Positions 15,692-55,019 of a stretch of DNA of 63,014 nt are shown here, piece after piece. Source of the DNA: an uncultured Alphaproteobacteria bacterium. GTDB lineage: Bacteria > Pseudomonadota > Alphaproteobacteria > HIMB59 > GCA-002718135. Location of the stretch: contig CACNHT010000007.1 of assembly GCA_902620285.1 (NCBI GenBank), forward strand, positions 1-63,014, in the 5' to 3' direction. The position numbers were made by a program, and so were the translations under genes. The first letter of the stretch is position 1. Each line of letters starts with the position of its first letter. The notes beneath the pieces are model-generated. The model searched no databases. It saw only the letters and a list, made by a program, of their open reading frames with translations, and was not told the origin of the DNA.

Positions 15692-16813
15692 TTATACTAC
15701 TAGTTTAAGACCGTACCCGGCTTTTTTAACTCTTGTTTTAAAATAATTTTTATTAAATTTATTCAAGGTTGGCTTTGTATTTATTTGATTTTCGACTTTA
15801 ATTCCAGCTTTCTTAATAGAATTTATTTTATTTTTATTATTTGTAATAAGATTAACTTTATTTATTTTTAATAATTTAAGTATTCTAGCAGCAATATTAA
15901 AATCTCTTTCATCATCTAAAAAACCAATATTATGATCAGCATCTATTGTATCCATACCCCTTGCTTGAAGAGAATAAGCTCTCATTTTATTAGCTAATCC
16001 TATTCCCCTACCTTCTTGTTCTAAATATAATATAATTCCACCATTATTTCTAACCATGTAATTAATTGATTGATTTAATTGTTCACCACAATCACATTTT
16101 AAAGAATGAAAAATATCACCTGTAAAACAAGCTGAGTGTATTCTTAAATTAACAGATTTTTTATTTATTTTTTTTGGATTAACAATTATCGCTACATGTT
16201 TATCAGATCCAATATATGATTTGAATATTTTAAAATTAGAATTTTCGTTTTTTGGTAGTGGAACGTTTGCACTAGAAACTAATTTAATACTTTCACAAAT
16301 TAATTCATTTTGCTTCAATAAATCTTTGTAATCGAATATTAAAATTCCATTCTTAAATCCAAATTCATTTATATTTTTGTAATATTTTTTATTGATTTTT
16401 TTAAAAACTAGCGATGGTATCATTTTAGCATTTTTGGAAAGATCAATACAAACATTATGAAAATTTTTAGATTTGAATTTTTTAATATTGGTAAATTTAA
16501 TTACTTTATTATTGCTAAGAGGATTAACAAATAAATTTATTATTTGATTTACATCTGTTTTGGGATTTATCTCAAAATAAATATTACTTTTAATATTCTT
16601 ATTAAAAATTGATTGAGCTTTTTGTTTAGTAATAAGTAGATATTTTTCATCAATTAAGTGCTTATTGAATTGATTAAAAATTTTACTTTGGGAATGCTCT
16701 AAATTAAAGAACATCCAATATTCCTTTTTATTCTGAATTATTAAGGGTCTTCCGGTCCTGAGTTCATTAATTGCCCTATCTATTATAGTTCCTGTATTAG
16801 ATTTGAAACTCAT
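15692..16813 (-). CDS. ribA: GTP cyclohydrolase II with degenerate DHBP-synthase-like N-terminal domain
   Basis: Opens the GTP imidazole ring to give the 2,5-diamino-pyrimidinone phosphate precursor of riboflavin. The C-terminal half is a full RibA domain: zinc ligands in CFTGDIFHSLKCDCGEQL, LYLEQEGRGIGLANKMRAY (catalytic Tyr/Arg region), ADHNIGFLDDERDFNIA and LITNNKNKI. The N-terminal ~170 residues resemble RibB in position, but I see none of its acidic active-site motif (DRENEGD-like), so DHBP synthase activity is unlikely. The start at 16813 (MSFKSNTGT) gives 373 residues. It is divergent by 36 bases from a RibD reductase-domain gene. It may serve riboflavin synthesis or the adjacent cluster. 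Confidence 0.9.
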   Translation of the reverse strand: MSFKSNTGTIIDRAINELRTGRPLIIQNKKEYWMFFNLEHSQSKIFNQFNKHLIDEKYLLITKQKAQSIFNKNIKSNIYFEINPKTDVNQIINLFVNPLSNNKVIKFTNIKKFKSKNFHNVCIDLSKNAKMIPSLVFKKINKKYYKNINEFGFKNGILIFDYKDLLKQNELICESIKLVSSANVPLPKNENSNFKIFKSYIGSDKHVAIIVNPKKINKKSVNLRIHSACFTGDIFHSLKCDCGEQLNQSINYMVRNNGGIILYLEQEGRGIGLANKMRAYSLQARGMDTIDADHNIGFLDDERDFNIAARILKLLKINKVNLITNNKNKINSIKKAGIKVENQINTKPTLNKFNKNYFKTRVKKAGYGLKLVV

Positions 16814-16849
16814 GAAAACTTTATATAGATATAATTGAAATAAAAACAA

Positions 16850-17683
16850 ATGATTACATCAAAAAATATAGGAATTTTACTAGATTTTATAAAAAATTCT
16901 AAAAAGAATAGTGATTTATATTTATTGGTTAAAAACAATAGTATTTCTTTATCTTCAAAAAGAAAAAGTAACTTTTACTTAAAAAATAATAATCTGGAAT
17001 CTAAAATTAATATAAATAAATTTTATCAATCAATTTTAAATATCCTTGTCCCAATACTAAGAAAAAACAAAAAATTAGTTATAGCTCAGATAGGACAAAG
17101 TATTGATGGTAGAATTGCATTAAATAATGGTAATTCACATTACATAAATAATCCCAAGAGTATTATTTATCTTCATTGCTTACGAAGTATCAGTGATGCA
17201 ATTATTGTAGGTTCAAATACCATTAAAAAAGACGATCCCCTATTAACTACAAGAAAAATAAAGGGCACAAATCCAAAAAGAATTATTATCGATGGCAGTC
17301 TTTCACTAAATAACAAATATAAAATATTTAATGACGGTAATGAAAATATAATTTTTACAAAAAGTAATAAAAATATTAGATTGAATAATTCAACAATAAT
17401 TAGATTAAAAGAAAAAAATTTTACTAAAAACTTAATTACGCAAATAAAAAAACTTAAATATAAAAATATTTTAGTAGAGGGAGGATCAAAAACTATTTCA
17501 GAATTAATTAATAATAAATATATTGATATTCTTCAATTTATGATTGCCCCAATATTAATAGGTTCCGGAATTAATTCATTAAATTTAAAAGAAATTTCAA
17601 ATCTCAATAAAGCTATCAGACCAAAACATAATTTTAATGAATTAGATAATGAAATTATTGTTAATTTATTTCTTAATAGCTAA
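16850..17683 (+). CDS. RibD C-terminal (DHFR-like) reductase domain protein
   Basis: Resembles the NADPH-dependent reductase half of RibD, which reduces the ribosyl side chain of the aminopyrimidine made by RibA. Residues about 75-275 show VIAQIGQSIDGRIA, HCLRSISDAIIVGSNTIKKDDPLLT, NPKRIIIDGS, ILVEGGSKTISELI and QFMIAPILIGSG, all RibD_C hallmarks. The first ~75 residues are Lys/Asn/Ser-rich and contain no cytidine-deaminase zinc motif (HAE, PCxxC), so the deaminase half is missing. At 277 residues it is longer than a bare RibD_C domain (about 220). It is divergent from ribA and overlaps the end of the methyltransferase gene by 18 bases. Confidence 0.85.
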   Translation: MITSKNIGILLDFIKNSKKNSDLYLLVKNNSISLSSKRKSNFYLKNNNLESKININKFYQSILNILVPILRKNKKLVIAQIGQSIDGRIALNNGNSHYINNPKSIIYLHCLRSISDAIIVGSNTIKKDDPLLTTRKIKGTNPKRIIIDGSLSLNNKYKIFNDGNENIIFTKSNKNIRLNNSTIIRLKEKNFTKNLITQIKKLKYKNILVEGGSKTISELINNKYIDILQFMIAPILIGSGINSLNLKEISNLNKAIRPKHNFNELDNEIIVNLFLNS

Positions 17684-18454
17684 AAAATCTGTATTATTTA
17701 AAATGAATCTAGAATTTTTTTCTTTAATACTTTTTAAACGAAATTTTAACCAATCATCAAAGTTAAGTTTATTTTTTTGAATAATTTCTCTACAAAAATT
17801 TAAAAAATAAATTTGAAATTTATAATTTGCACTAACATCCCACGTAGAATCTAAAACATATGTTTTGTGAGTTCTTTTAAATACTTTATTCATTAATTCA
17901 GTGCAATCTGGTCCAACGGCCACTTCCCCTATTCCTTTGTCAGATTTTTGATCTTTATTAAAAATATTAAGAATTCTTTTATCATCCTTGTGTTTTGGAA
18001 AAAATTTAAAATTACCGTTATAATTTAAGGCAAAGTAGACAATTTCTGTATCAACATTTAATTTATGAAAATATTTAAACCATGTTTTTGGAAGAATATC
18101 TAAAAAAGCAGATCCTGTAACTAAATTATAATCATTAAAATTTATTTTTTCTAGATTATTAATTACATCAACAATTTTAAAATTAGTTTTTTTTATTTTA
18201 GATGATAGTTTTATATTTTTTTTAAAATAATTTGTTGATTGATGTGATATGTCTACAAAAAACCAATATTGATTATTTAATAATCGTGACTTAAGAAATC
18301 TATAATTGGATCCAGCGCCTGAACCTAAGTCAACTATTCTAATATTTTTTTTATTTTTAAAAAATTTATTAATTAAATATAGTATTCTTTGGTTTCGTGA
18401 ATTTCTATCGACAGTTTCTCTGAGATTTAACCATTTATTTTGAAATTCATGCAT
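17666..18454 (-). CDS. Class I SAM-dependent methyltransferase
   Basis: A Rossmann-fold methyltransferase of 262 residues. The SAM-binding motif I is IRIVDLGSGAGSNYRFL (about residues 38-55), followed by the acidic WFFVDIS of motif II and a motif IV-like YNLVTGSAFLDILPK. NQRILYLINKFFK precedes the SAM fold. The substrate is not recognisable. The gene starts one base after the glycosyltransferase stop on the same strand, the last of four tightly packed minus-strand genes, so its target is plausibly the product of that cluster (inference). Confidence 0.8.
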   Translation of the reverse strand: MHEFQNKWLNLRETVDRNSRNQRILYLINKFFKNKKNIRIVDLGSGAGSNYRFLKSRLLNNQYWFFVDISHQSTNYFKKNIKLSSKIKKTNFKIVDVINNLEKINFNDYNLVTGSAFLDILPKTWFKYFHKLNVDTEIVYFALNYNGNFKFFPKHKDDKRILNIFNKDQKSDKGIGEVAVGPDCTELMNKVFKRTHKTYVLDSTWDVSANYKFQIYFLNFCREIIQKNKLNFDDWLKFRLKSIKEKNSRFILNNTDFLAIKK

Positions 18455-18455
18455 A

Positions 18456-19502
18456 TTAAATTAAATTAACAAATTTCTTAGCTGACTCTAGAGGGGTAAG
18501 AAGATATCTTTTGTTTTTATAAATATCAATATTTAGTTTTTTAAAATTTTTTTTATTTAATATATTTTTAATAATTATATTTCTAAGATCATTTACTTCA
18601 AATTTTTTGAAATAAATAACACCCTTTTTTCCCAGTGTATTTAAGATAGTATTAGTAAAAAAGGTTATAATTGGCTTTTTAATTATTAATGCATTTGCTA
18701 AAGACATCCCAAAACCTTCATATTTACTTACCGAAATGTAACAATCTGTTTTAGAATATAATTTAGCTAATTTTGTATCTGAAATAGTACCATGGAATAT
18801 TATTTTTCTGTTCATTGAATTTTTAGAAATAAATTTTTTGAGTTTTTTGTAATAACCTATATCTCTTGTAGTATCACCAACAATTTCTAAAATAAAACTA
18901 TCTAAAGGCTTTAAAACTTTTAATAAAAAAAGATAATTTTTTCTATTTATTATACTTCCACATGTTAAAAGATGAATTTTACTATTATTTTTAAAACTAT
19001 AATTTGCTAGCCTTTCTATTCCAGGTTCAACTACAGAAATTTTATTATTTAGTACCTTAAATTCATTTATTAATAAATTTTTTGTATTTTTAGAAGTCAC
19101 AATAAATTTATTTATTTTTTTGAAATTTTCTTTTTCTAATCGTAAGAATTTTTTTGACCTTTGACCTTTAAATTCAAGATATAAAGGATGATGTATTAGC
19201 GCGATAACATTATAAGTAAGTATTTTTTTAAAAATAGAATACATTCCTTCTAAAGCTAATCCATCTATAATAATTTTAGAGTGAGGATCAATTTTATCTA
19301 AAATGTTAAGAAAATATTTTATATCGTTATTTGTAGGAAAAGGATAATTTTCACTTAGAGCAATTGGTCTAATATTTATATCTCTTATCTTTGCATATTC
19401 TAGGATATTTTTTTCATAAATATATCCTCCAGTTTTTGCATTAATATTTCCTGGATAGACAAAATAAATATCAGATTTATTTTTAGATAACCTCTTTTTC
19501 AT
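18456..19502 (-). CDS. GT4-like family glycosyltransferase
   Basis: GT-B fold glycosyltransferase of 348 residues. The C-terminal half has the family 4 signatures: SVVEPGIER, IHLLTCGSIINRKNYLFLL, KIIFHGTISDTKLAKLYSKTDCYISVSKYEGFGMSLANALIIKKP, cited for its SKYEGFGMSLANAL acceptor/donor motif with the E-x7-E-like pattern. The N-terminal half begins DIYFVYPGNINAKTGGYIYE. Start 19502 (MKKRLSK) is preferred over 19520. It overlaps the upstream PTPS-like gene by 20 bases and abuts the methyltransferase gene. Glycosyl donor and acceptor are unknown; context suggests a pterin- or pyrimidine-like acceptor rather than lipopolysaccharide (inference). Confidence 0.83.
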   Translation of the reverse strand: MKKRLSKNKSDIYFVYPGNINAKTGGYIYEKNILEYAKIRDINIRPIALSENYPFPTNNDIKYFLNILDKIDPHSKIIIDGLALEGMYSIFKKILTYNVIALIHHPLYLEFKGQRSKKFLRLEKENFKKINKFIVTSKNTKNLLINEFKVLNNKISVVEPGIERLANYSFKNNSKIHLLTCGSIINRKNYLFLLKVLKPLDSFILEIVGDTTRDIGYYKKLKKFISKNSMNRKIIFHGTISDTKLAKLYSKTDCYISVSKYEGFGMSLANALIIKKPIITFFTNTILNTLGKKGVIYFKKFEVNDLRNIIIKNILNKKNFKKLNIDIYKNKRYLLTPLESAKKFVNLI

Positions 19503-19881
19503 ATGATGCCCATGCAACATTTGATTCTTGCAAGGTTATTTTAATTTTTTTTAAAGATTTGTAATCTTCAGAGAATTCATTTCTTAGTCTATTCAAAATC
19601 TTATTGCAAATATCCTCTGCTAAAAACTCTGTTGAGGTAATTTTTCCCTTAAATTCATCAATTTCATCTAAATTTTGATAATTATATATTTTAAGAATAT
19701 CTTTTAAAGTCGTGGACACTATTCCTAAATCCATAATTATATTGTATTTATTAAGTTTATCAGTGAAAAATTCTGCATCTACTAAATATGTAGCTCCATG
19801 CATATTTTGGGCTGGTCCAAATACTTCTCCAGGTAAAGAATGAGCTATTAGAATATTTTCTCTTACTTTTATCGAATACAT
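19483..19881 (-). CDS. 6-pyruvoyl-tetrahydropterin synthase / QueD-like protein
   Basis: T-fold protein of 132 residues related to PTPS and 6-carboxytetrahydropterin synthase. IAHSLPG and NMHGATYLVDAEF correspond to the zinc-His motifs, IIMDLGIVSTTLKDIL to the conserved MDFxxLK block, and PTSEFLAE-like STEFLAEDICNKI plus KKIKITLQESNVAWASY to the C-terminal T-fold with its Glu. The usual HGHxY is HGATY, and the catalytic Cys before it is absent, so classic PTPS or QueD chemistry is doubtful. It lies 2 bases after the MDR dehydrogenase gene and overlaps the glycosyltransferase start. Confidence 0.83.
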   Translation of the reverse strand: MYSIKVRENILIAHSLPGEVFGPAQNMHGATYLVDAEFFTDKLNKYNIIMDLGIVSTTLKDILKIYNYQNLDEIDEFKGKITSTEFLAEDICNKILNRLRNEFSEDYKSLKKIKITLQESNVAWASYEKEVI

Positions 19882-19883
19882 AA

Positions 19884-20843
19884 TTAATATTTAACTAGAT
19901 GCATTATTGTATCCTTATTTTTAAGGATTTTATAGTAATCTTTTTCTAAATCAAAAAAATTACTTTCACTAGTAATTAATTTTTCTAATTGTGAATTTTT
20001 TAAAGATTTAATTGCTAATTTTAATCTCCCCTCAAAATCATATTTATTTTTCATGTATTTTGGAATTTTAGATACCTGTGAGCTAATAATTTTTAATCTT
20101 TTAGAATGAAAATAACCACCTAAGGCAACTACTCCTTTATTTTTACCATACCAACTAGCTTCTACTATTTTTCCTTCGATAGATAATTTTTCCATTAAAG
20201 AATTTAAAACTTTATAATTAGCTGTAGTGTTTATTGCTACATCTATTTTCTCAATCTTTCTTATATCAATAAAATTTAATCCTAAATAGTTGGCAATTTT
20301 TCTTTTATTTTTATTATTATCAAAAACATAAACATTTTTATATCCATTAATTTTAAAAAAAAATGCAGTTAATAATCCTACAGAGCCAAGTCCTACAATT
20401 AGAATTTTGTTATTACTTTTAGATTGAGCGTCCCAAAAGATATTAATTGCTGTTTCCATATTTGCAGTTAGAACATATTTTCTCAAATTACCTTTTGGTA
20501 AAAAAATTAAATTTTGAATAGAAATTTCATATAAATCTTGATGAGGATAAAGACTAAATATTTTTTTATTTATATATTTCCTTGGACCATCGATAATATT
20601 CCCAACATTTATATAACCGTATTTTATAGGTAAATTAAAAGAACCATCTTGAAAAGGGGCTTTCATTAATTCAAATTGATCCTTACTTACGCTTTTAGAT
20701 GAAACTAATTTTTCAGTTCCCTTGCTAATACCTGAGTAAATAGTTTTAACTAAAACTGTTTTGTTATTTTTATTGTAAACAAGTTTTTTTTGATAAATTT
20801 TAGCTTGTTTTTTTTTATCAATCCATAAAGAATAAGATTTCAT
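19884..20843 (-). CDS. MDR-family (zinc-less) alcohol dehydrogenase-like protein
   Basis: Medium-chain dehydrogenase/reductase of 319 residues. The N-terminal GroES-like domain contains IYSGISKGTEKL and LPIKYGYINVG; canonical zinc ligands (Cys in the CGTD motif, GHE) are missing, so it is likely zinc-independent. The Rossmann domain starts with ILIVGLGSVGLLTAFF (about residues 147-162), with VYVFDNNKNKR giving an acidic strand-2 end that usually favours NAD. It is first in a minus-strand run with the PTPS-like, glycosyltransferase and methyltransferase genes and is divergent, 13 bases away, from the creatininase-like gene. A side-chain oxidoreduction on the cluster's product is plausible (inference). 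Confidence 0.8.
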   Translation of the reverse strand: MKSYSLWIDKKKQAKIYQKKLVYNKNNKTVLVKTIYSGISKGTEKLVSSKSVSKDQFELMKAPFQDGSFNLPIKYGYINVGNIIDGPRKYINKKIFSLYPHQDLYEISIQNLIFLPKGNLRKYVLTANMETAINIFWDAQSKSNNKILIVGLGSVGLLTAFFFKINGYKNVYVFDNNKNKRKIANYLGLNFIDIRKIEKIDVAINTTANYKVLNSLMEKLSIEGKIVEASWYGKNKGVVALGGYFHSKRLKIISSQVSKIPKYMKNKYDFEGRLKLAIKSLKNSQLEKLITSESNFFDLEKDYYKILKNKDTIMHLVKY

Positions 20844-20856
20844 AATTTACTTATAA

Positions 20857-21624
20857 ATGTATAATAAAAAAATGCTAACAAACTTTTGGGAAGAATTAAC
20901 AACAAATGAAATTAAAAAAATAAATAGAAAAACAGTTTTAATTTTCCCATTTTCATCTATAGAACAACATGGTTCGCACCTCCCATTAAATACTGATAAA
21001 AAAATTCTTGAAGGAATATTATTAGAATTCAATAAAAAATATAATTCAAATAAATATTTAATTATGCCTGAAATATATTTTGGTTCAGCTGCTGAACATA
21101 CAGATTTTGATGGAACTATAAGTATTGATTCATTGGAATTTATATCGCACTCTTTATCAATTTTAGAAAATGTATGTAAATTGAAATTTAAAAATATATT
21201 ACTTTTAAATAGTCATGGTGGACAAATTAGTCATATAGATATTATTGCTAAAGAATTGAAATCAGAATTTAAGATAAATATAGTTAAAGGCACATATTTT
21301 TTATTTGATCAATTTAAAGGAATTATATCAAGTAAAGAAAAAGACTTTGGTTATCACGGTGGAGAATTTGAAACATCTATTATGTTATATTTATTTCCAA
21401 ACCTAGTTAGGCAATCTAAAATTTCTAAACATAGATTATCTCCCGATTATTTATCATCTAAAACCATTTCTTATGAGAAAAATATTAAGAAAGCTTGGTC
21501 AACTAAAGAATTAAGTAAAAGTGGAATTATTGGAGATCCTAGAAAATCCAATGCACAGATAGGAAAAAAAATAATTGATAGAGTAACACAAAAATTAAAT
21601 AAAATAATAAATGAGATGTTTTAG
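20857..21624 (+). CDS. Creatininase-family amidohydrolase (FAPy deformylase-like)
   Basis: Metal-dependent amidohydrolase of 255 residues. All family metal and active-site motifs are seen: FSSIEQHGSHLPLNTD, FGSAAEHTDFDGTIS, LLLNSHGGQISHI and GYHGGEFETSIMLYL. The superfamily includes creatininase, the mycofactocin peptidase MftE, and the archaeal deformylase ArfB that acts on formylated pyrimidines derived from GTP. Neighbourhood with RibA and RibD-reductase homologues favours an ArfB-like role, but this is inference. An alternative ATG at 20872 would give 250 residues. The gene is divergent from the MDR dehydrogenase. Confidence 0.84.
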   Translation: MYNKKMLTNFWEELTTNEIKKINRKTVLIFPFSSIEQHGSHLPLNTDKKILEGILLEFNKKYNSNKYLIMPEIYFGSAAEHTDFDGTISIDSLEFISHSLSILENVCKLKFKNILLLNSHGGQISHIDIIAKELKSEFKINIVKGTYFLFDQFKGIISSKEKDFGYHGGEFETSIMLYLFPNLVRQSKISKHRLSPDYLSSKTISYEKNIKKAWSTKELSKSGIIGDPRKSNAQIGKKIIDRVTQKLNKIINEMF

Positions 21625-26624: not shown

Positions 26625-27224
26625 ATGTATATTTATGATTTTATCCAAGGATTAATAATTGGAGGAACATTAATTATAGCCATAGGACCGCAAAATTTAT
26701 TTGTAATTCAACAAGGGCTTAAAAAAACTTATGTTTTTACAGTTACTTTATTTTGCGGTCTATCTGACAGTTTACTAATTGTAATTGGAATATATCTATC
26801 TAATTATATTGTTCAAATTAATCCAAGTATCATAGGAATAATAAAAGTATTAGGTGGAATTTGGCTTATATTTTATGGATTAAATAAAGTTATAAAGTTA
26901 AATCAAATTAAAGATATAAATAAAAAATTAAATATAATTAACGAATACGGAAAAGTATTAATTACCTTATTCCTTATTACATACGCAAATCCTCATGTTT
27001 ATCTAGATACAATTATTTTGCTGGGATCATTATCAACAAATTTTAATGATCAATTTGCATTTGGCGTTGGAGCAATTTCAGCTAGTTTTTTGTTTTTCTT
27101 TTCTTTAGGATATATGTCAAAGTTTTTGTCAAAATATATTTATTCAAATAAAACTTGGTTTTGGATTGATCTAACCATTGGTCTGTTAATGATTAGTTAT
27201 GGAATATATTTTATAATTTTTTAA
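26625..27224 (+). CDS. LysE/ArgO-family amino acid exporter
   Basis: Inner-membrane protein of 199 residues with about six hydrophobic spans. The diagnostic N-terminal motif GGTLIIAIGPQNLFVIQQGLKK, with GPQN, is that of the LysE/ArgO (basic amino acid export) branch, and ITYANPHVYLDTIILLGSLS with NPxxYLD is the second conserved block. The likely substrates are arginine or lysine, by family only. It is divergent from the DUF4864-like gene and its end overlaps by 14 bases the end of the large fusion gene. No LysG/ArgP-type regulator is adjacent. Confidence 0.88.
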   Translation: MYIYDFIQGLIIGGTLIIAIGPQNLFVIQQGLKKTYVFTVTLFCGLSDSLLIVIGIYLSNYIVQINPSIIGIIKVLGGIWLIFYGLNKVIKLNQIKDINKKLNIINEYGKVLITLFLITYANPHVYLDTIILLGSLSTNFNDQFAFGVGAISASFLFFFSLGYMSKFLSKYIYSNKTWFWIDLTIGLLMISYGIYFIIF

Positions 27225-30200
27225 AGAAAGTTTCTAAGTTTTTACATACCTGATCAACATTTAATTTTGTAAATACAAGAGGTGGTTTTATTTTAATAAC
27301 ATTGTCATAAGGTCCATCAGTGCTCAATAAAATACCTTGATTTCTCATATAATTAATAAGCAGTTTAGCTAATTTTTTATTTGGTTTAGACACATTACTA
27401 TTCTGAATAATATCTATTCCTAAAAAAAGCCCCCTACCTCTAACTTCACTAATATATTTTTTATATTTAAGTTGGATTTTTTTTAATTCTTTTAAAAAAT
27501 AATTACCAACTAACAAAGCATTTTTTTGTAATTTATTATTATCAATAGTCTCTAATACTGCTTTACCGATAGCACAGGAAACAGGATTACCACCGAATGA
27601 GTTAAAATATTCCATCCCGTTATTAAAAGTTGAAGCAATTTTTTCTGTAGTTATAACAGCAGCTATAGGGTGACCATTACCCATAGGTTTACCCAAGGTT
27701 ACTATATCAGGAACGACATCATGCTCTTCAAATGACCAAAAATGTCTTCCAACGCGTCCAAAACCAGTTTGTACCTCGTCAACAATACATAATGCATTGT
27801 TTCTTCTAATTTCTGAAAATATTTCTTTTAAATAATTTTTTGGAAGAATTACTTGACCGCCGCAACCAAGTATACTTTCAGTAAAAAAACATGCAATTTT
27901 TGTTTCTTTAATTTTATTTCTAATTACCGTTTTAGCTTCATCTATATATTTTTGAATCCAATTTGAATTTTGATATCTCCACTTACCTCTTAGGGGATCA
28001 GGCATTTCTAATACATGAACATAATCTTTTTTACCCGAACCACCCTTACTATTAAATTTATATGGACTTAGATCAATTAAAGCATTGGTGTGCCCATGAT
28101 AAGCATTGTCCATCACAAAGACATCTTTTGCACTAGTATAAGTTTGGGCTATTCTATAAGCTAAATCATTAGCTTCAGATCCTGTACATACGAAAAATAT
28201 CTTATTTAACTTCTTTGGAAACTTACTTAAAAGTAATTCGCTATAATCGTTAATTGTATCGTATAGATATCTCGTATTAGTATTAAGTTTTGAATTTTGC
28301 TGAGTCATAGCTTCATGGACATAGGAATTTGAATGTCCAACATGGGAAATATTATTTACACAATCTAAGTATCTCCTGCCATATCTATCAAAAAAATACT
28401 GATCTTTAGCTTCAAGCATATGAAGAGGTTTATTGTAAGAAATTGATAAATTATCAGAAATATTTTTTCTTCTTTTGTTTAAAGTATCTTTAAAATTATT
28501 ATTATTATTAGAATAAAAAGATTTTGGAATTCGTAGAATTAAATTTGGATCAGGTGAAATTTTATTCCAAATATTGAATAAAAATTCTTCACCTACTCCT
28601 GGAAAATTCTTATCATGTCCTAATAAATCTAAAATAATTTGAAAATGTAAATGTGGTAACCATTTTCCATTTTCAATAGAATTACCAATTTTACCAATCC
28701 ATTGACCTTTCTTAATTTTTTTTCCAATTTTTAGTTTTTGAAACATTATTTTAGATAAATGACCGTATAGAGTATAAAATTTATATTTTTTAAAACTATG
28801 TTCTAAAACTAGAGTGGGGCCATAGTCATATTTAAAATTATTATTTTTTAAAATTATAATTTTACCATCTATTGGCGCAAATAAATCTGTTTCCTGATCA
28901 ATAAAAATATCAATTCCTAAGTGAATATTACGTCTTTCATTCGTATTTAATGCAGAAATAAAGTTAGGTCCTTTATAAACTTTTCTTTTTTCATTGTATA
29001 AACCTATACCTATTCGAGAATTATCTTCTTTAAATATTTTATTAACTCTTTTCTTAAGCGAACTATTATCTGGGTTACCTTTTAATAAAGGTGAATCAGA
29101 ACTTAATTTTAAGATAGATTTATTTTTATCAAGTAAATTAAATTTAAAAATATTACCAAAGTTGAATTTATTTATATAATTTATAATTTCATTATGATGG
29201 TGAATAATATCAAAGCCGCATATTTCGCGAACAATATATATTAAAAAATTGATAGGAATTTTGTCTAATTTTTCTAATAAAGACCATGCATCTTTCTCAC
29301 TAATGCTTAAATATTGATTTGATGGATATTTAATTCTTTGTTTTTTTGCCATTACAACAGTAATCATAAGTCGTGACTTACATAATGATATTAATGAATT
29401 AATTTCATCCTCATTAATAGAAAACTGTTTATTGTACTCTGTTATTATATTTTTAAGTGTAAGATAAATATTATCATTGTTCATTAGCGCATATGAAAGG
29501 CATATAGCTAAATCATTTATAGTTGGAGAATAAATAGAATCTCCATAATCTAGTAAACCACAAACATTGTTTTCTTTAATAACAATATTATAATTATTTG
29601 GATCTGAATGAGTTATTGAATATCTTAATTTATTTAAATTATTTTTTACAAATTTTTCATATTCTGAAAAACATTTTAATAAAATTAATTTTTTTGAACC
29701 AGTAAAAATATTAATGTCTTTTTTAATCCATTTTATATTTGATGGATCCCAAATAAAATTTCTATGGGCATCTATATCGTTAAATGCTTTCAACTTAGTT
29801 GATACTTTTCCAAGTAACTTACCCAAAGAATTTTCAATTTTATCGTTACTTTTTGTATCTCCATACATGCGCCCTTCAATATAAGATAAGATCCTAACAA
29901 AGCATTCTCTATTCTTTTTATCTAAATATTTTACAATCTTTGTATGGTGTATTTTTGGTATAAAAGATTTAAGACTAAGATCACTTCGTAAATAATTAAT
30001 TAATCTATCTTGGTATTGTAATATATTTATTTTTTCTGATGGGTTTGAAATTTTTAATACATATTTTTTTTTATTATTTATGAATATAATAAAATTTATA
30101 TCCCTTTCACTATCAAGTTGTTTAATTTTGAGTAATTTATTTCTTAAGAAAGAGAAATTAATCTTTAACCATTTAATTAAATGTTTATTATCAATAATAG

Positions 30201-30243
30201 GTGGATCAACATCAAAAACTGACATAAAAGGTGTATAATTCAT
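27211..30243 (-). CDS. Three-domain fusion: HYKK-like kinase, M23 metallopeptidase, class III aminotransferase/phospho-lyase
   Basis: A 1010-residue protein. Residues ~1-370 are an APH-like kinase with SITHSDPNNYNIVI (catalytic HxDxxxxN) and GLLDYGDSIYSP (metal Asp), like hydroxylysine kinase. Residues ~430-590 form a LytM/M23 domain with intact metal ligands (HLGIDIF and PHLHFQ) and TLYGHLSK. Residues ~600-1010 are a class III PLP enzyme: VCTGSEANDLAYRIA, DNAYHGHTNALIDLSPYK, CIVDEVQTGFGRVGRHFW and IVTLGKPMGNGHP with the Schiff-base Lys, close to the ethanolamine-phosphate / phosphohydroxylysine phospho-lyases. No signal peptide is seen. Start 30243 is one base from the divergent psuK-like start; 30225 is an alternative. 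A kinase feeding a phospho-lyase is a logical pair; the M23 role is unclear. Confidence 0.88.
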   Translation of the reverse strand: MNYTPFMSVFDVDPPIIDNKHLIKWLKINFSFLRNKLLKIKQLDSERDINFIIFINNKKKYVLKISNPSEKINILQYQDRLINYLRSDLSLKSFIPKIHHTKIVKYLDKKNRECFVRILSYIEGRMYGDTKSNDKIENSLGKLLGKVSTKLKAFNDIDAHRNFIWDPSNIKWIKKDINIFTGSKKLILLKCFSEYEKFVKNNLNKLRYSITHSDPNNYNIVIKENNVCGLLDYGDSIYSPTINDLAICLSYALMNNDNIYLTLKNIITEYNKQFSINEDEINSLISLCKSRLMITVVMAKKQRIKYPSNQYLSISEKDAWSLLEKLDKIPINFLIYIVREICGFDIIHHHNEIINYINKFNFGNIFKFNLLDKNKSILKLSSDSPLLKGNPDNSSLKKRVNKIFKEDNSRIGIGLYNEKRKVYKGPNFISALNTNERRNIHLGIDIFIDQETDLFAPIDGKIIILKNNNFKYDYGPTLVLEHSFKKYKFYTLYGHLSKIMFQKLKIGKKIKKGQWIGKIGNSIENGKWLPHLHFQIILDLLGHDKNFPGVGEEFLFNIWNKISPDPNLILRIPKSFYSNNNNNFKDTLNKRRKNISDNLSISYNKPLHMLEAKDQYFFDRYGRRYLDCVNNISHVGHSNSYVHEAMTQQNSKLNTNTRYLYDTINDYSELLLSKFPKKLNKIFFVCTGSEANDLAYRIAQTYTSAKDVFVMDNAYHGHTNALIDLSPYKFNSKGGSGKKDYVHVLEMPDPLRGKWRYQNSNWIQKYIDEAKTVIRNKIKETKIACFFTESILGCGGQVILPKNYLKEIFSEIRRNNALCIVDEVQTGFGRVGRHFWSFEEHDVVPDIVTLGKPMGNGHPIAAVITTEKIASTFNNGMEYFNSFGGNPVSCAIGKAVLETIDNNKLQKNALLVGNYFLKELKKIQLKYKKYISEVRGRGLFLGIDIIQNSNVSKPNKKLAKLLINYMRNQGILLSTDGPYDNVIKIKPPLVFTKLNVDQVCKNLETFFKKL

Positions 30244-30244
30244 A

Positions 30245-31132
30245 ATGTTGAAATCTAAAAACATTTTTGTTTGTATTGGGGCAATTCATCACGATTATTT
30301 ATTAAATCTTAAAAAAAATATTATTAATTTTAGATCTAATCAAATTACACAAAAAAACAGAATTGGTGGAGTGGCGTACAATATTGCAGAATTGCTTTCG
30401 AATTTTGTTGATGTAAACCTTTATAGTTTAGCTATCAATGAAGAGATTAGAAAAAAAATCTCAAAAAAAATCTATGTTCATCAAGTGAATAAAGATTATG
30501 CAGATAGATACTATTTAGCTTTATCAGATAAAAATAATAAATTTCTATTAGGATTAGCTAACACAGATGAATATGAAAATAATAAATCTTTAAAAATACC
30601 AAACATCAAGAATAAAAATATAATATTTGATCTAAATTTTTCTAAAACCTATTTGGAAAAATCAATAAATAAACTATCAAAAAAAAATAAAATTATAGTG
30701 TGCGCAACATCAGTGCATAAAGTTATTAAAATTAAAAGGATTATAAATAAAATTGATTTTATATTCTTAAATAAAGCAGAGTTACTTAAACTTACAAATT
30801 CTTCAAATATAATATTAGGTGTAAAAAAAATATTAAAACAAAATAAAAAAATAAAAATAATTACTACTAATTCAAAAAATAATGTAATCTTTGGAAGTAA
30901 TGAATTTATAAAAAAAATAAAACCCCCATCAATCAAAGTAGTAAACGAAAATGGAGCTGGAGACGCACTAGCAGCTATGATGCTGTATTTGTTCAGTATA
31001 AATGAAAAAATGAATTATATTTTGAAAACTTCTGTAGCATGTGGGTCTTATTATGCTAGTGGTAAAAGTCTAAAAACTAAGAGTGATTTTTTAAAAATTA
31101 AAAATCTTTCTAAGAGAGTGATTGTACAATAG
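30245..31132 (+). CDS. psuK: PfkB-family carbohydrate kinase, probably pseudouridine kinase
   Basis: Ribokinase-fold kinase of 295 residues. The N-terminal IGAIHHDYLL and RIGGVAYNIAELLS are the substrate-binding entry motifs, and NENGAGDALAAMML carries the GAGD anion hole with the catalytic Asp. Specificity for pseudouridine is inferred from the directly following psuG (one base after the stop) and overall similarity of the N-terminal block to PsuK. The sequence is very Lys/Asn-rich, as are other minor genes here. It is divergent from the fusion gene with one base between the ATGs. Confidence 0.83.
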   Translation: MLKSKNIFVCIGAIHHDYLLNLKKNIINFRSNQITQKNRIGGVAYNIAELLSNFVDVNLYSLAINEEIRKKISKKIYVHQVNKDYADRYYLALSDKNNKFLLGLANTDEYENNKSLKIPNIKNKNIIFDLNFSKTYLEKSINKLSKKNKIIVCATSVHKVIKIKRIINKIDFIFLNKAELLKLTNSSNIILGVKKILKQNKKIKIITTNSKNNVIFGSNEFIKKIKPPSIKVVNENGAGDALAAMMLYLFSINEKMNYILKTSVACGSYYASGKSLKTKSDFLKIKNLSKRVIVQ

Positions 31133-47526: not shown

Positions 47527-48594
47527 TTATTGTGGTACTTCGCCGTCAATACCTTGAACATAAAAGTTCATTCCAAGTAACATTCCATCAGGCGCTACTT
47601 CACCTTCAGGAACCACAAGCTCACCAGCTTGATTGTAAATTGGACCCGTGAAAGGATGAATAGTTCCATCTTTAATTCCAACTTCCATATTTACTGCTTC
47701 TTGAATTAAACTTGCTGGCATAAGTTTAGTATTATATGGTGACATTACAACCATACCTTTATCCATACCATCCCAAGTATCACCAGAAGACCAAGTGCCG
47801 TCCACAACAGCTTTTGCTCTTTCAGCATAGTAAGGGCCCCAAATATCTTCAATGGAAGTTAAATGTGCATCAGGACAAAATTCTTCTTGGTTTGAAGCTT
47901 GACCAAATGCATAAACACCCGCTTTTTGAGCAGCTTGGCAAGGAGCATATGTATCAGTATGCTGAACAATTATGTCAGCTCCTTGATTAATTAATGTATT
48001 AGCTGCATCAGCTTCTTTACCTGGGTCGTACCAAGTAAATACCCAAATTATTTTCATTTTGATATCTGGATTTACTTTTGAAGCCGCTAAATAAAATGCA
48101 TTAATTCCTCTTACAACTTCAGGAATAGGAAATGAAGCTATATAACCAATAGTATTAGTTTCAGTCATATGACCGGCAATATGCCCTTCAATCATTCTAC
48201 CTTCGTAAAATCTAGCTGAATATGTTGCAACGTTATCTGCTTGGATATACCCAGTAGCGTGTTCAAATTTTATATCAGGAAAATCCTTAGCTACTTCATG
48301 TGTCTGATCCATATAGTTGAAAGACGTTGTAAATATTAAATCATGTCCTGAGTCTGCTAGTTTTCGGATTGCTCTCACTGCATCTGCGTTTTCAGGAATG
48401 TTTTCAAGATAAGTAGTAGTAATAGAGTCACCAAGTTGGCTCTCCATATATTTTCTACCTACATCATGCATATATGTCCAACCATGATCACCTGGAGGAC
48501 CTATGTATATAAATCCAACTTTTTTAGGGTCTGCATATGCTGAACCAAATGCAAATACCAAAAAAGTAGATAAAAAAGTTATTATTCTAATCAT
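47527..48594 (-). CDS. BMP-family ABC transporter substrate-binding protein
   Basis: Periplasmic (or lipid-free) binding protein of 355 residues of the Bmp/Med family, which binds purine nucleosides and related compounds. Residues 1-21 (MIRIITFLSTFLVFAFGSAYA) are a signal peptide cut at AYA. KVGFIYIGPPGDHGWTYMHDVGR opens the mature domain, KLADSGHDLIFTTSFNYMDQT and TDTYAPCQAAQKAGVYAFGQASNQ line the ligand cleft. AGGTGAGG (48600-48607) is a strong ribosome binding site, rare in this genome. The transporter's other genes lie upstream on the same strand after a 106-base gap that probably holds its own promoter; linkage with urate and allantoin genes suggests purine uptake. Confidence 0.92.
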   Translation of the reverse strand: MIRIITFLSTFLVFAFGSAYADPKKVGFIYIGPPGDHGWTYMHDVGRKYMESQLGDSITTTYLENIPENADAVRAIRKLADSGHDLIFTTSFNYMDQTHEVAKDFPDIKFEHATGYIQADNVATYSARFYEGRMIEGHIAGHMTETNTIGYIASFPIPEVVRGINAFYLAASKVNPDIKMKIIWVFTWYDPGKEADAANTLINQGADIIVQHTDTYAPCQAAQKAGVYAFGQASNQEEFCPDAHLTSIEDIWGPYYAERAKAVVDGTWSSGDTWDGMDKGMVVMSPYNTKLMPASLIQEAVNMEVGIKDGTIHPFTGPIYNQAGELVVPEGEVAPDGMLLGMNFYVQGIDGEVPQ

Positions 48595-48700
48595 TTTAAC
48601 CTCACCTGCTAATATAACGATTACTCAATTATATACTTAATATATACAAAAGGGTTTGATCAATAATTCTATATGTTTATAGAAAAAAAAAAGTGGATAT

Positions 48701-49570
48701 TTATCTGCCTTTATAAAAAGGAATAGTTAATGAAGCTGGTGCGCTAAGTTTTATCCTTAATTTATTACTAGAAATTAACACTAATACTATAATAGTTGCA
48801 ACATATGGCGCCATGCTAAAAAATTGACCAGGGAATCTTAAACCTAAAGCCTGAAGATTCATTTGAAGAATAGTTACACCTCCAAATATATAAGCTCCAA
48901 TAAGTACTCTTTCTGGTTTCCAGGTTGCAAATACAACTAAAGCTAATGCTATCCATCCTCGTCCGGCTGTCATACCCTCTTGCCACATTGGAGCATAACA
49001 AATTGAAATATATGATCCTGCAAGAGCACACATAGAACCTCCAAATATAATTGATAAAAATCTAATTTTAATAACGCTATATCCTAATGCATGTGCAGAA
49101 TTATGAGATTCCCCTACTGCTCTTAAAATCAAACCAGCTTTAGTTTTGTAAAAAAAATAACTAACCAAAAAAACAATTAAGAAAGAAAATATAACAAAAA
49201 ACCATGGTGACAGACCATCAATTGGTGTTCCAATATATTGTTTGCCAAGCATCGAACTAAGTCCTATTCCAAAAATAGTTAATGCTAATCCTGTAGCAAT
49301 TTGATTTGACATTAAGAATAGAACTAGAAAAGCAAATAAACCAGACATGATAATTCCGGATAATATAGATACAAAAAAAGCTAAAAAATAACTTCCGGTA
49401 ATTACTAAGATAATAAAAGCTGACACTGCTCCTACCAACATCATTCCTTCTACACCTAAATTTAATACTCCAGATTTTTCTGTAACTAATTCACCTATAC
49501 CAGCAAAAACTAGAGGTGTTGTTGCAATTAAAACAATTTGTAATATACCAAGTATTAAATCTAAATTCAT
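48701..49570 (-). CDS. BMP-type ABC transporter permease (second, shorter subunit)
   Basis: Inner-membrane permease of 289 residues with about eight hydrophobic segments. TTPLVFAGIGELVTEKSGVLNLGVEGMMLVGAVSAF is the highly conserved start of the YufQ/NupQ-type subunit (E-K-S-G-(V)-x-N-L-G-x-E-G-M), and SSMLGKQYIGTPIDGLSPW and ICYAPMWQEGMTAGRGWIALALVVFATW the later blocks. It pairs with the 360-residue permease, overlapping its stop by 4 bases, and with the double ATPase upstream. Confidence 0.92.
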   Translation of the reverse strand: MNLDLILGILQIVLIATTPLVFAGIGELVTEKSGVLNLGVEGMMLVGAVSAFIILVITGSYFLAFFVSILSGIIMSGLFAFLVLFLMSNQIATGLALTIFGIGLSSMLGKQYIGTPIDGLSPWFFVIFSFLIVFLVSYFFYKTKAGLILRAVGESHNSAHALGYSVIKIRFLSIIFGGSMCALAGSYISICYAPMWQEGMTAGRGWIALALVVFATWKPERVLIGAYIFGGVTILQMNLQALGLRFPGQFFSMAPYVATIIVLVLISSNKLRIKLSAPASLTIPFYKGR

Positions 49571-50649
49571 AATAATTTTTTGTAAGTTAATTTATAGTTA
49601 ATTAGTAATTCTGCACCTAATAAATAAAATAAAACCAAACCCTGAAATATAAAACCTACCGCTGAAGGTATTTGTAAAAACAATTGTGCATCTTCAGCAC
49701 CAAGATAAGTAAGAGCGATAACTAAAGAAGCAAAAATAATACCAATTGGGTGAAGTCTACCTAAAAAAGCAACTATAATTGCAGTAAATCCATAATTTGG
49801 AGAAATATCTCTATATAACAATCCAATTGGACCAGATACTTCAGCTAAACCTGCAATACCTGCAAAAGCGCCACAAATTGCAAAAGCAAAAAAAACTAAA
49901 GTTGTTTGATTAAAACCAGCATATCTAGCAGCTTTGGGGCTGTAACCGGATACTTTTAATTGAAAGCCAAAAATAGTTTTTGAAAATATAAACCAAGATA
50001 TAAAAATTAAAAATAGCGTTATAATTAATCCAAAGTGCACCCTCAAACCATCAAATAATAGAGGCATTCTTCCAGATTCACTAAATGGTCTTGATTTAGG
50101 AAAACTATAACCAAATGGATCTTTCCAAGGTCCAACTACTAAATAATCTAAAATAAATAAAGCAACATAAACTAACATTAAACTTGTTAAAATTTCATTT
50201 GTATTAAATTTTGTTTTTAAAATAGCAGGTATTAAACCCCACAATGCCCCTCCGATTGCTCCTGCAAAAATCATTAATGGCAACAACCAGAAAGCATTTG
50301 TATCATGAAATAATAGTCCAATACCTCCACCAAAAATTGCACCCATGGTAAGTTGTCCTTCAGCTCCAATATTATAAATATTATTCTTAAAACAATATGA
50401 GAGACCAATTGCAATTAAGGCTAAAGGTGTTGCTTTTACAAACAATTCAGAAATACCGTAGGTTGAAGAAATAGGTGAAATAAAAAATGTATACAATGCA
50501 TAAACTGGATCAAATCCAAGAAGAACAAAAATAATTGAACCTGTAATTAAAGTTAAAACTATTGATATTATAGGAACAAAAAAATTCATTAAACCCGAAC
50601 TCTGTGAGCGAGAAACTATAGATGGAAATAAACTATTCATTTTTTCCAC
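49567..50649 (-). CDS. BMP-type ABC transporter permease (first, longer subunit)
   Basis: Inner-membrane permease of 360 residues. FKNNIYNIGAEGQLTMGAIFGGG is the conserved YufP/NupP-type motif, corresponding to the NLGVEGM motif of its partner. ILKTKFNTNEILTSLMLVYVALFILDYLVVGPWKDP contains the conserved NEI-x-T-SLM helix and the GPW(K)DP loop; GYSPKAARYAGFNQTTLVFFAFAICGAFAGIAGL is the permease-ATPase coupling region. It starts 16 bases inside the ATPase gene end and overlaps the shorter permease start. Confidence 0.92.
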   Translation of the reverse strand: MEKMNSLFPSIVSRSQSSGLMNFFVPIISIVLTLITGSIIFVLLGFDPVYALYTFFISPISSTYGISELFVKATPLALIAIGLSYCFKNNIYNIGAEGQLTMGAIFGGGIGLLFHDTNAFWLLPLMIFAGAIGGALWGLIPAILKTKFNTNEILTSLMLVYVALFILDYLVVGPWKDPFGYSFPKSRPFSESGRMPLLFDGLRVHFGLIITLFLIFISWFIFSKTIFGFQLKVSGYSPKAARYAGFNQTTLVFFAFAICGAFAGIAGLAEVSGPIGLLYRDISPNYGFTAIIVAFLGRLHPIGIIFASLVIALTYLGAEDAQLFLQIPSAVGFIFQGLVLFYLLGAELLINYKLTYKKLL

Positions 50650-52138
50650 CCATCAATAATCCTAATTTTTCTATTTCTATTTCACTAGTTTTAAAAGGTT
50701 TGGATAAATTACCATCATAAATAACTGATATTTTATGAGTAATTTCAATCAATTCATCTAAATCTTGAGAAATAACAATTATAGACGTTCCATTTTGAGA
50801 TAATTCTATCAAAGACTCTCTTATAGAATGCTCAGCACCAGCATCTATCCCCCAAGTTGGATGTGAAATAATTAATATTTTTGGCTTAGATGATATTTCT
50901 CTACCAATGACATATTTTTGTAAATTTCCTCCGGACAAGCTTGATGCTTTAGCATCATTACCAGGAGTAATAACTTTAAATTCATTAATTACATTATTCG
51001 CAAAATCATCAACGTTATTTTTCAATATTATGCCATTTCTAATAAAATTATTTTTTGGAAATTGACTCAAAAGAATATTTTCAGACAAACTTAACTCAGG
51101 TACTGCACTATGACCCAATCTATTCTCCGGAACAAAAGAAATAGATAAATCTCTTCTTTTTTGTGGCCCATACTTTTCAATTTTTTTATTATCAAAAGTA
51201 ATTGATCCAGATTTAATATTTATATTTTCTCCTGTTAAAATATCCATTAATTCTGATTGTCCATTACCAGCAACTCCAGCAATGCCATAAATTTCACCCA
51301 CTCTAACTTGAAAAGAAATATTTTTAAGATCTGTTAAAAATGGATCATTAAAGTCACATGAAATATTTTTTACTTCAAAGTTAACTTCGTCTTTTATATG
51401 TCCATAATTAGTTTTTAAGTCATCTAATTTTTGTCCTAGCATTTTTGTTGCAAGTGTTTTTGCAGTTTGATTTGCAGTACTTGAAGTATCTATAATTTCA
51501 CCACTTCTCATTATAGTAACTGTATCACATATTGATATTACTTCTTCGAGTTTATGAGTGATATATAATATTGTACGACCTTCTTTGACGAGTGCATTTA
51601 ATGTTACAAATAAACTTTCAACTTCTTGTGGTGTTAAGACTGAAGTTGGCTCATCCATAATAAGTATCTGAGGATCTTGTAATAAAATTCTTACAATTTC
51701 TACACGCTGCTTTTCTCCAGCTGATAAAGCAGTAATTGGAGCATCTAAATCTAAGGGAAGATTATATCTTGAGCTTATGTTTTCTAGCTTATTTTCTAAA
51801 TCTGAATAAGACATCTGGTCATCAATTCCTAAAATTAAATTTTCTTTTACTGATAAAGAATCAAATAAAGAAAAATGCTGAAATACCATTCCTATTCCTT
51901 GTTTCCTTGCTTCTGCTGGGGAATTAACTTTAAAATCCTTATTATTTAATTTAATATTTCCTTCATCTGGTTCTAAGAGACCATATAGAATTTTTACCAA
52001 CGTTGATTTCCCTGCTCCATTTTCTCCTAAAATTGCATGAACTGCATTTTTTTTAATATCAAAAGTAACCTTTTTATTTGCTATTACTCTTGGAAAAGAT
52101 TTTGTAATATTTTCTATATTTAATATTGTATCACTCAT
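50633..52138 (-). CDS. BMP-type ABC transporter ATP-binding protein (two ABC domains)
   Basis: A 501-residue double ATPase like those of the YufO/RbsA type. The first domain has an intact Walker A GENGAGKSTLVKI, signature LSAGEKQRVEI and Walker B ILIMDEPTSVLTPQE. The second has a degenerate Walker A region GVAGNGQSELMDI, signature SLSGGNLQKYVIGRE, and Walker B followed by SHPTWGIDAGAE instead of DEPT, so only the first site should hydrolyse ATP efficiently; this asymmetry is normal for the family. It begins within the ureidoglycolate lyase stop (8-base overlap), linking transport and catabolism in one transcription unit. Confidence 0.93.
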   Translation of the reverse strand: MSDTILNIENITKSFPRVIANKKVTFDIKKNAVHAILGENGAGKSTLVKILYGLLEPDEGNIKLNNKDFKVNSPAEARKQGIGMVFQHFSLFDSLSVKENLILGIDDQMSYSDLENKLENISSRYNLPLDLDAPITALSAGEKQRVEIVRILLQDPQILIMDEPTSVLTPQEVESLFVTLNALVKEGRTILYITHKLEEVISICDTVTIMRSGEIIDTSSTANQTAKTLATKMLGQKLDDLKTNYGHIKDEVNFEVKNISCDFNDPFLTDLKNISFQVRVGEIYGIAGVAGNGQSELMDILTGENINIKSGSITFDNKKIEKYGPQKRRDLSISFVPENRLGHSAVPELSLSENILLSQFPKNNFIRNGIILKNNVDDFANNVINEFKVITPGNDAKASSLSGGNLQKYVIGREISSKPKILIISHPTWGIDAGAEHSIRESLIELSQNGTSIIVISQDLDELIEITHKISVIYDGNLSKPFKTSEIEIEKLGLLMGGKNE

Positions 52139-52625
52139 AATTTAATTCAAATATTTCTGATTGTTCAAAATTATAAATTTCAATATTATTATCCGCATCT
52201 TTTTTATCAATGGTAATATATTTTTCATTCTCAAGAGATATTAAAGGAAAATGCCATACTTTGGGATTAAAATTTATACCATCACCGCCGCTTACTTTGA
52301 ATATTTCAATTAAATCAATTTTAGGTTTGTTACCTATTGGAGCAACTAAAACTAAAAAACCTGTAGCATTAAACGGAAGAAATACTTGAGAACTAAAAGG
52401 GTGATTTTCTAACATGTTAATTTTTAATGGAAAGTTTCTTTTCTTTGCCTGAAAAATATTTAATCTAGATCTTTTGTCATCACCAATTATTTGAATATTT
52501 GCTAAATCAAAAAAACTATCGGTTGTATCTTTATTAATACTTTCATAATTTTTATTAGATGTTGTAATTAAGTCACCGTAATTTTTGAAATTCTCTTTAC
52601 TAATATTCTTTATTTTATATTTCAC
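52131..52625 (-). CDS. allA: Ureidoglycolate lyase
   Basis: Splits (S)-ureidoglycolate into glyoxylate and urea. The 164-residue cupin has SRLNIFQAKKRNFPLKINMLENHPFSSQVFLP, cited for its MLENHPFSSQVFLP metal/substrate block, then TGFLVLVAPIG, and DGINFNPKVWHFPLISLE with the conserved Trp-His, matching AllA length and motif order. It is the last catabolic gene of the minus-strand set and overlaps the allantoicase stop by 4 bases and the ABC ATPase start by 8. Confidence 0.9.
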   Translation of the reverse strand: MKYKIKNISKENFKNYGDLITTSNKNYESINKDTTDSFFDLANIQIIGDDKRSRLNIFQAKKRNFPLKINMLENHPFSSQVFLPFNATGFLVLVAPIGNKPKIDLIEIFKVSGGDGINFNPKVWHFPLISLENEKYITIDKKDADNNIEIYNFEQSEIFELNYE

Positions 52626-55002: not shown

Positions 55003-55019
55003 AAAAATGCTTGATTTAA

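Follow-up and report, generated by a model that had tools for sequence, protein, structure and literature searches.

What do the seven adjacent genes at 15692–21624 of this DNA make, and do they belong together? In the stretch analysed (63,014 nucleotides, hereafter the window) an earlier note had listed a closely packed set: RibA, a RibD-type reductase, a methyltransferase (MT), a glycosyltransferase (GT), a PTPS-like protein, an MDR dehydrogenase and a creatininase-family protein. All seven open reading frames are present and intact, and their domains match that list. The packing is borne out by the coordinates: a 2-base gap separates the MDR and PTPS genes and a 1-base gap the GT and MT genes, the PTPS and GT frames overlap, and the convergent MT and RibD-type genes overlap by 18 bases. 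We think it rather likely that the seven genes constitute a dedicated branch pathway that converts GTP into a small, pterin-like molecule bearing a sugar and a methyl group.

The gene at 19483–19881 (minus strand) encodes a member of the PTPS family (PF01242, E 9e-21), as the earlier note had it; the note overlooked the subgroup, a relative of solved structure and the loss of the catalytic Cys and of the HGH motif. Residues 21–25 read FGPAQ, a motif that 17 of 18 bacterial sequences in our alignment (A3) share; the other, L160, has FGSAQ instead. Residues of the zinc-lyase motif are lost and the conserved glutamate is kept: the window protein has AQNMHGA at the zinc-motif site, where the Cys and second His of CxxxHGH are missing, and Glu119 is invariant in the alignment. 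A structural study of SCO6650 from Streptomyces coelicolor reportedly found neither zinc nor PTPS activity. SCO6650 is of the same family as the window protein (E 7.9e-34 over residues 1–129 of 132) and is named ‘Uncharacterized protein’ in the PDB (3d7j). FGPAQ is the signature of the PTPS-IV subgroup of COG0720 (AGeNNT cluster-node 62), for which PF00925 and RibD_C neighbours have been reported (PMC5445326); both are nearby in the window. Judged by its sequence, the window PTPS is a member of this published, uncharacterised group. The passages on PTPS-IV in PMC5445326 give no function for it, and the main text names glycosyltransferase and creatininase 0 times.

The neighbouring MDR dehydrogenase (19884–20843, minus strand; alignments A4 and A11) is remotely BchC-like, scoring 50.9 bits with the BchC model TIGR01202 against a cut-off of 291.25; its matches to Glu_dehyd_C and ADH_zinc_N are both below cut-off. 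The MT (17666–18454, minus strand) appears to be a remote class I SAM-dependent enzyme (Methyltransf_31, E 3.7e-4, below cut-off), and D42, L43, G46 and G48 of its DLGxGxG stretch are invariant in a 31-sequence alignment (A10). The GT belongs to family GT4 (18456–19520, minus strand; PF00534, Glycos_transf_1, E 2e-17), with an internal Met at 19502 as an alternative start. The creatininase-family amidohydrolase (20857–21624, plus strand; PF02633, E 1.2e-54) is a facultative member. The proposal that it is an ArfB-like deformylase is weak and was set aside: the protein scores below every specific cut-off, namely those for ArfB (NF033501, 29.9 against 180 bits), mycofactocin MftE (TIGR03964, 103.1 against 172) and creatininase (TIGR04448, 77.5 against 235), and the gene is present in only 8 of 46 related loci in the class.

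These loci were located by their PTPS-IV gene, which is carried by 47 of 386 alphaproteobacterial genomes; from matching handles and totals, we take this genome set to be identical across the PTPS, RIBD, CofH and CDP counts. Outside the genome of the window (G000), the 46 loci hold the MDR in 45 cases, the GT in 44, the MT in 40, the RibD-type reductase (RIBD) in 38 and RIBA in 19 (one of these, L129, weak), as counted with profiles whose source sequences were BLAST hits within this very set of loci. Clustering exceeds chance, because every one of the 46 holds at least one partner. Among 70 loci of close relatives, 57 show all seven genes arranged identically, in order as well as orientation; the remaining 13 reach a contig end. 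A second draw at the level of the phylum gave PTPS-IV in 19 of 279 genomes; the 15 new loci carry the MDR (15), GT (15), RIBD (14) and MT (13), and across class and phylum the neighbourhood is kept between genera. Two Streptomyces plasmids have PTPS-IV in the absence of the other cluster genes. Plasmid pOB3b1 of Methylosinus trichosporium OB3b carries the cluster. Genome-wide, the RIBD subfamily (E<1e-60, a limit chosen after the score gap was seen) is found in 42 of the 47 cluster genomes, all except G090, G165, G217, G219 and G255, and in 0 of the 339 others; at a looser limit five cluster-negative genomes also match (3e-48 to 9e-46). The RIBD alignment, like that for the CDP-alcohol transferase below, includes rows from some sampled genomes. 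This co-occurrence shows that the cluster genes are functionally linked. The partners recur across Alphaproteobacteria, contrary to the note's own caveat that they might not co-occur beyond this genome, and its interpretation survives as a co-inherited GTP-linked biosynthetic set, on the locus counts and the distribution of RIBD, without the deformylase. We also calculated dN/dS against four relatives. For the more distant L042 and L066 (59–97% identity) the seven genes gave 0.02–0.26, with the PTPS at 0.02 against L042 and not estimable against L066; for the nearest, L046 and L017, values of 0–0.35 (PTPS 0.32 in L017) come from too few differences for firmness. Such values, well below 1, count in favour of a dedicated branch.

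The cluster is conserved in many bacteria and partly in salt-loving archaea. In Haloarcula halophila, MDR, PTPS and MT genes stand behind a GTP cyclohydrolase III (GCH III; PF05165, E 6.6e-81). This enzyme is not homologous to RibA but also opens GTP, and its use in place of RibA speaks for the opening of GTP as the initial step. Haloarcula marismortui has MDR and PTPS genes as well. The Haloarcula PTPS is 28% identical to that of the window and keeps an HxH pair, and FGPAQ is absent from both Haloarcula sequences in the alignment; given this divergence its reaction may differ. Searches of the Haloarcula and S. fungicidicus stretches turned up no RIBD.

The earlier note was right about the seven genes and missed a further one in the relatives, a dedicated CDP-alcohol phosphatidyltransferase (alignment A5). 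At E<1e-40, a limit set after the score gap was seen, this subfamily is found in 25 of the 47 cluster genomes and in 0 of the 339 others; a looser limit adds one cluster-negative genome (3e-16). The alignment used for the genome-wide search was free of FkbM methyltransferases. By coordinates the gene lies no more than 10 kb from the PTPS in 18 of the 25 carriers, and by profile count it adjoins the cluster in 16 of the 46 class loci; three of the six inspected among the seven distant copies lie close to RIBA or RIBD. Its presence raises the alternative that the product is a glyco-phospholipid whose pterin or ribityl-pyrimidine part derives from GTP. The alditol phosphate generated by RibA and RibD would receive a phosphatidyl or archaetidyl moiety from the transferase, GT4 would add a sugar as in phosphatidylinositol mannoside (PIM) synthesis, and in the window lineage, a variant, the route would end with the soluble compound. 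The distribution and location of the gene are consistent with such a lipid, as are homologues with the motif in clusters of Haloarcula, Streptomyces, Microbacterium, Agrobacterium and Thiodictyon. Weak, below-cut-off matches point the same way, being among others to PgsA, PI-phosphate and archaetidylinositol-phosphate synthases, which use alditol or cyclitol phosphates. Two further genes recur near the cluster, in keeping with a lipid: LPG_synthase_TM occurs in 1 of the 46 class loci, 7 of the 15 from the phylum and 4 of the 15 on plasmids, and YceI in 14, 3 and 0 of them, respectively. Cytochrome b561 is another neighbour. Against it, 22 of the 47 cluster genomes lack the subfamily, that of the window included; it has no match in G000 (80% complete), G152, G243 or G318, whose CDP-alcohol transferases are other ones. 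Some of the weak matches are also to serine-type synthases, and no paper was found with the pterin-lipid phrases searched. We regard a lipid product as unlikely. Slightly more doubtful is its broadest form, a bacterial and archaeal pathway that is entered by GCH II or the unrelated GCH III and leads to a membrane-anchored pterin glycophospholipid in many members, the marine lineage making a soluble version.

It is very improbable that RibA and RibD serve as a back-up or regulated source of riboflavin beside an unrelated glycosylation operon, even though both match canonical catalytic domains. RibA (15692–16813, minus strand) matches PF00925 (GTP_cyclohydro2, E 1.9e-48) and no other Pfam family; its N-terminal domain of about 185 amino acids is degenerate, with no RibB match. 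The CDCG, NK.RAY and DERDF stretches are taken by us to be catalytic and the cysteines to be metal-binding. All are retained on alignment with E. coli GCH II (2bz0, E 4e-41), which identifies a GTP cyclohydrolase II; PMC5445326 instead labels PF00925 ‘GTP cyclohydrolase I; FolE2’ where it describes the PTPS-IV neighbourhood. The frame is listed from TTG 16849, but ATG 16813 is the likely start because the two nearest aligned relatives (L104 and L105) begin at the residue matching Met13. The RibD_C-type pyrimidine reductase (16850–17683, plus strand; PF01872, E 3.7e-31), belongs to a pathway-specific subfamily; as the note had claimed, no deaminase domain was found in it with Pfam or NCBIfam. 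A riboflavin role is opposed by the absence of this domain from the cluster, by the tracking of PTPS-IV by RIBD and by the pairing of GCH III with related partners in Haloarcula. A complete riboflavin operon (full ribD, ribE, ribBA and ribH) also stands on another contig (C10) of the same genome, which disposes of the concern that the pair might be the sole pathway; the cluster RibA and RibD are not the genome's riboflavin pathway. The copy number of PF00925 proved weak as evidence of linkage, at least two copies being present in 43 of the 47 cluster genomes and in 34 of 49 cluster-negative genomes, the latter a non-random pick. The RibA N-terminal domain was too divergent to serve as a profile probe (mean column identity 34%). 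Strong RIBA-profile matches occur in other contexts in cluster-negative G004 and G041; since RibA paralogs thus exist without the cluster, RibA is tied in by adjacency and not by profile.

That the window PTPS is an ordinary QueD or folate-route enzyme in an incidental neighbourhood is hardly credible. It does match the PTPS Pfam family and the QueD model TIGR03367, but the latter with 37.3 bits against a cut-off of 89.25; the signatures of PTPS-I (CxxxHGH), PTPS-II (CxxxxxHGH) and PTPS-III (ExxHGH), as given in passages of PMC5445326 and PMC5041015, are all missing from it in alignment A3, and the neighbourhood is conserved over genera. Equally far-fetched is a role in F420 or deazaflavin synthesis, suggested for PTPS-IV by an unpublished remark in a passage of PMC5041015 and by CofH about 9 kb from the PTPS in G232 and G308 (one genus); it was dropped within the Alphaproteobacteria sample, where CofH is as common outside the cluster genomes as among them (matches over cut-off in 51 of 339 and 7 of 47 genomes, respectively; Fisher p = 1, ignoring genome relatedness), and the genome of the window has no CofH match.

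For the dedicated branch from GTP, RibA would produce 2,5-diamino-6-(5-phosphoribosylamino)pyrimidin-4(3H)-one, established chemistry for a family whose catalytic stretches are conserved here, and the stand-alone reductase would turn the ribosyl into a ribityl chain. As the cluster has no deaminase the 2-amino group should stay, pointing to a pterin or diaminopyrimidine and not a flavin. The MDR and PTPS-IV proteins may then oxidise and rearrange or cyclise the ribityl intermediate, after which the MT would add a methyl group and GT4 a sugar. The creatininase would be an optional hydrolase, and in many relatives the product is perhaps joined to a lipid. Going by the enzyme families, whose action on pterins we infer, the product is probably a GTP-derived, sugar-decorated pterin-like compound.

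A literature search on the gene combinations or pterin lipids returned nothing except PMC5041015; neither a cluster-dedicated CDP-alcohol phosphatidyltransferase nor a Haloarcula cluster with a GCH III opener was found in print. PTPS-IV, a named but functionless group with a solved structure, gains a fixed set of partners and a likely first step. Retention of the cluster in a 1.4 Mb genome suggests that it is of real value to small marine bacteria. Were the product a lipid, it would represent a new membrane lipid class common to bacteria and haloarchaea.

Three known systems resemble the cluster in part. The riboflavin pathway (RibA and RibD; ArfA, ArfB and ArfC in archaea) shares GTP opening and the ribosyl-to-ribityl reduction, which in its archaeal and fungal order occurs without a prior deaminase step; unlike that pathway, the cluster has no lumazine or riboflavin synthase and adds the PTPS, MDR, GT and MT. 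Phosphatidylinositol and PIM synthesis combines a CDP-alcohol transferase with a GT4 enzyme, a pair shared with many cluster relatives, whereas the window lineage is without the dedicated transferase. The cyanobacterial pterin glycoside route begins from GCH I. Its sugar-bearing pterins, as described in passages of PMC13259868, are the same kind of product as that predicted for the cluster.

The window is contig C7 of the genome G000, an assembly of 1.38 Mb in 54 contigs that is about 80% complete; the records of its close relatives are presumably marine single-cell genomes, and the lineage probably belongs close to HIMB59. All seven genes placed by the earlier note at 15692 to 21624 were found with open reading frames, and its family assignments agree with Pfam and NCBIfam, the matches of the class I methyltransferase and the MDR dehydrogenase lying under the Pfam cut-offs. 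The genes for the MDR dehydrogenase, the PTPS-IV protein, the GT4 glycosyltransferase and the methyltransferase run head to tail, spaced by 1 to 2 bases or overlapping. The RibA-type GTP cyclohydrolase II gene shares their strand and sits past the stand-alone RibD_C-type reductase gene; the reductase and creatininase-family genes are on the strand opposite to the other five. Comparison with loci L104 and L105 moved the RibA start from the listed TTG to ATG 16813. The creatininase-family protein was tried as ArfB, MftE and creatininase and fell under all three cut-offs. Elsewhere in the window, reading of ORF translations indicates an apparent purine uptake and degradation block at 47527–61836 (BMP-type ABC transporter, allantoicase-like, OHCU decarboxylase-like and HIU hydrolase-like proteins, xanthine dehydrogenase subunits, an XdhC-like protein, a deaminase and a membrane protein resembling urate oxidase) and a single 1017-residue ORF at 27211–30264 that looks like a fusion of three parts, namely a kinase of phosphotransferase type, a stretch resembling M23 peptidases and a class III aminotransferase. 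A tRNA at 1–57 is truncated by the window edge.

All seven genes occur in the same order in 57 of 70 close-relative loci, and the remaining 13 reach a contig end. Of four relatives used for dN/dS, the two more divergent gave 0.02 to 0.26 for the seven genes where dS could be estimated, and divergence from the two nearest was too small. Searching 386 alphaproteobacterial genomes with an alignment of PTPS alone gave matches in 47, G000 and its relatives counted (45/330 among good-quality genomes), and the surroundings of the other 46 loci were fetched (9–20 kb each). These loci were found without use of the partners, whose profiles were built afterwards from BLAST-identified members. Among these genomes, which are related by descent, the profiles detected the dehydrogenase in 45/46 loci, the glycosyltransferase in 44/46, the methyltransferase in 40/46, the reductase in 38/46, RibA in 19/46 (weakly in L129) and the creatininase-family protein in 8/46. 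An unusual locus is L147 of genome G219, where PTPS and the dehydrogenase lie on opposite strands with none of the remaining partners. A second survey, of the whole phylum Pseudomonadota, gave PTPS matches in 19 of 279 genomes; the 15 loci fetched, six of them outside the class, held the dehydrogenase and glycosyltransferase in every case, the reductase in 14 and the methyltransferase in 13.

The reductase is specific to PTPS-IV genomes. Across the 386 class genomes, matches to the cluster type better than 1e-60 were found in 42/47 PTPS-IV genomes versus 0/339 others; it was absent from five of the 47, and the next-best scores, 3e-48 and weaker, came from five cluster-negative genomes. The RibA paralog is not specific to the cluster: at least two PF00925 copies occur in 43/47 cluster genomes, but the same holds for 34 of the 49 cluster-negative genomes selected for comparison, and the cluster-negative G004 and G041 have a strong RibA match at other locations. 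In these two genomes (loci L173 and L174) the cluster-type RibA gene adjoins or overlaps a response-regulator match, with no PTPS-IV gene, which is a different context for this paralog. The earlier note had asked whether a riboflavin set exists elsewhere in G000; full ribD, ribE, ribBA and ribH were found on contig C10 (ribE and ribH named by reading translations), and the RibA/reductase pair of the window is therefore an extra copy.

By sequence, the window PTPS has one solved relative, SCO6650 (PDB 3d7j), labelled 'Uncharacterized'. The window protein contains FGPAQ, and in an alignment of 20 PTPS sequences His14, His28, Glu85 and Glu119 are invariant. Glu119 presumably matches the glutamate that anchors pterin in this family. 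The 18 bacterial sequences lack two residues of the QueD motif, its Cys and its second His, with HGAT replacing HGH; the two Haloarcula sequences retain HxH. FGPAQ is the published PTPS-IV signature, and PF00925 and RibD_C have been reported near the PTPS-IV subgroup, with no function assigned in the portion of the text available (PMC5445326). PTPS-IV may have a second role, as suggested by the Streptomyces plasmid loci L160 and L161, where its neighbours include MBL-fold hydrolase and cupin genes and no dehydrogenase, glycosyltransferase, methyltransferase or reductase was detected in the stretch. An unpublished link of PTPS-IV to archaeal F420 is mentioned in another paper (PMC5041015); in the class sample, CofH exceeded its cut-off in 7/47 cluster genomes versus 51/339 others, and the link is disfavoured in this class. 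No CofH match was found in the roughly 80% complete G000. In G232 (contig C10) and G308 (contig C132), the two members of one genus in the sample, the CofH and PTPS genes are about 9 kb apart.

A further partner is a subfamily of CDP-alcohol phosphatidyltransferases whose motif is intact, present at E<1e-40 in 25/47 cluster genomes versus 0/339 others. Its gene lies within 10 kb of PTPS in 18 of the 25; of the seven farther off, six were fetched, three of which are close to RibA or the reductase. The G219 copy is interrupted by a stop codon. Weak family matches include glycerol- or inositol-phosphate-using enzymes, but serine-type ones too. The subfamily was not found in G000 or its three sampled cluster-bearing relatives; when five CDP-alcohol transferases of other kinds from these four genomes were compared with its alignment, they gave just 11 to 33 bits. 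Also recurring in the 46 class loci are YceI (14), cytochrome b561 (11), GT2 (10), FkbM (8) and a sulfatase-like protein (6); LPG_synthase_TM occurs in 1/46 class loci but 7/15 phylum loci. The 'sulfatase'-annotated protein of L155 and its L107 relative match no Pfam family at 1e-3, and their profile has matches in 11 loci.

Homology shows that the cluster has enzymes available for opening GTP and for reducing the pyrimidine, and that it has no deaminase. The 2-amino group would be kept, and the product would therefore be pterin-like. The dehydrogenase and PTPS-IV could then change a side chain or close a ring, with decoration by the methyltransferase and glycosyltransferase. In genomes that also encode the CDP-alcohol transferase, ribityl phosphate would, as an alditol phosphate, make a natural acceptor; because this transferase is missing from the window lineage, the product of that lineage is more probably a soluble glycoside.

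The cluster, whole or partial, is also carried on named plasmids of Methylosinus, the gammaproteobacterium Thiodictyon, Streptomyces, Microbacterium, Palleronia, Agrobacterium and Peteryoungia. Plasmid pNG700 of H. marismortui encodes the dehydrogenase, PTPS, glycosyltransferase, methyltransferase, CDP-alcohol transferase and creatininase, with no GTP cyclohydrolase among the listed genes of an incomplete gene table. Natrarchaeobaculum has a GTP cyclohydrolase IIa–dehydrogenase pair, with no PTPS detected. In the very similar loci of Haloarcula halophila and strain GH36, the dehydrogenase, PTPS, methyltransferase and CDP-alcohol transferase genes adjoin GTP cyclohydrolase IIa, which in H. halophila matches the GCH III family PF05165 at 6.6e-81. 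That two different GTP-opening enzymes occur with related partners is the strongest hint of a pathway beginning with the opening of GTP.
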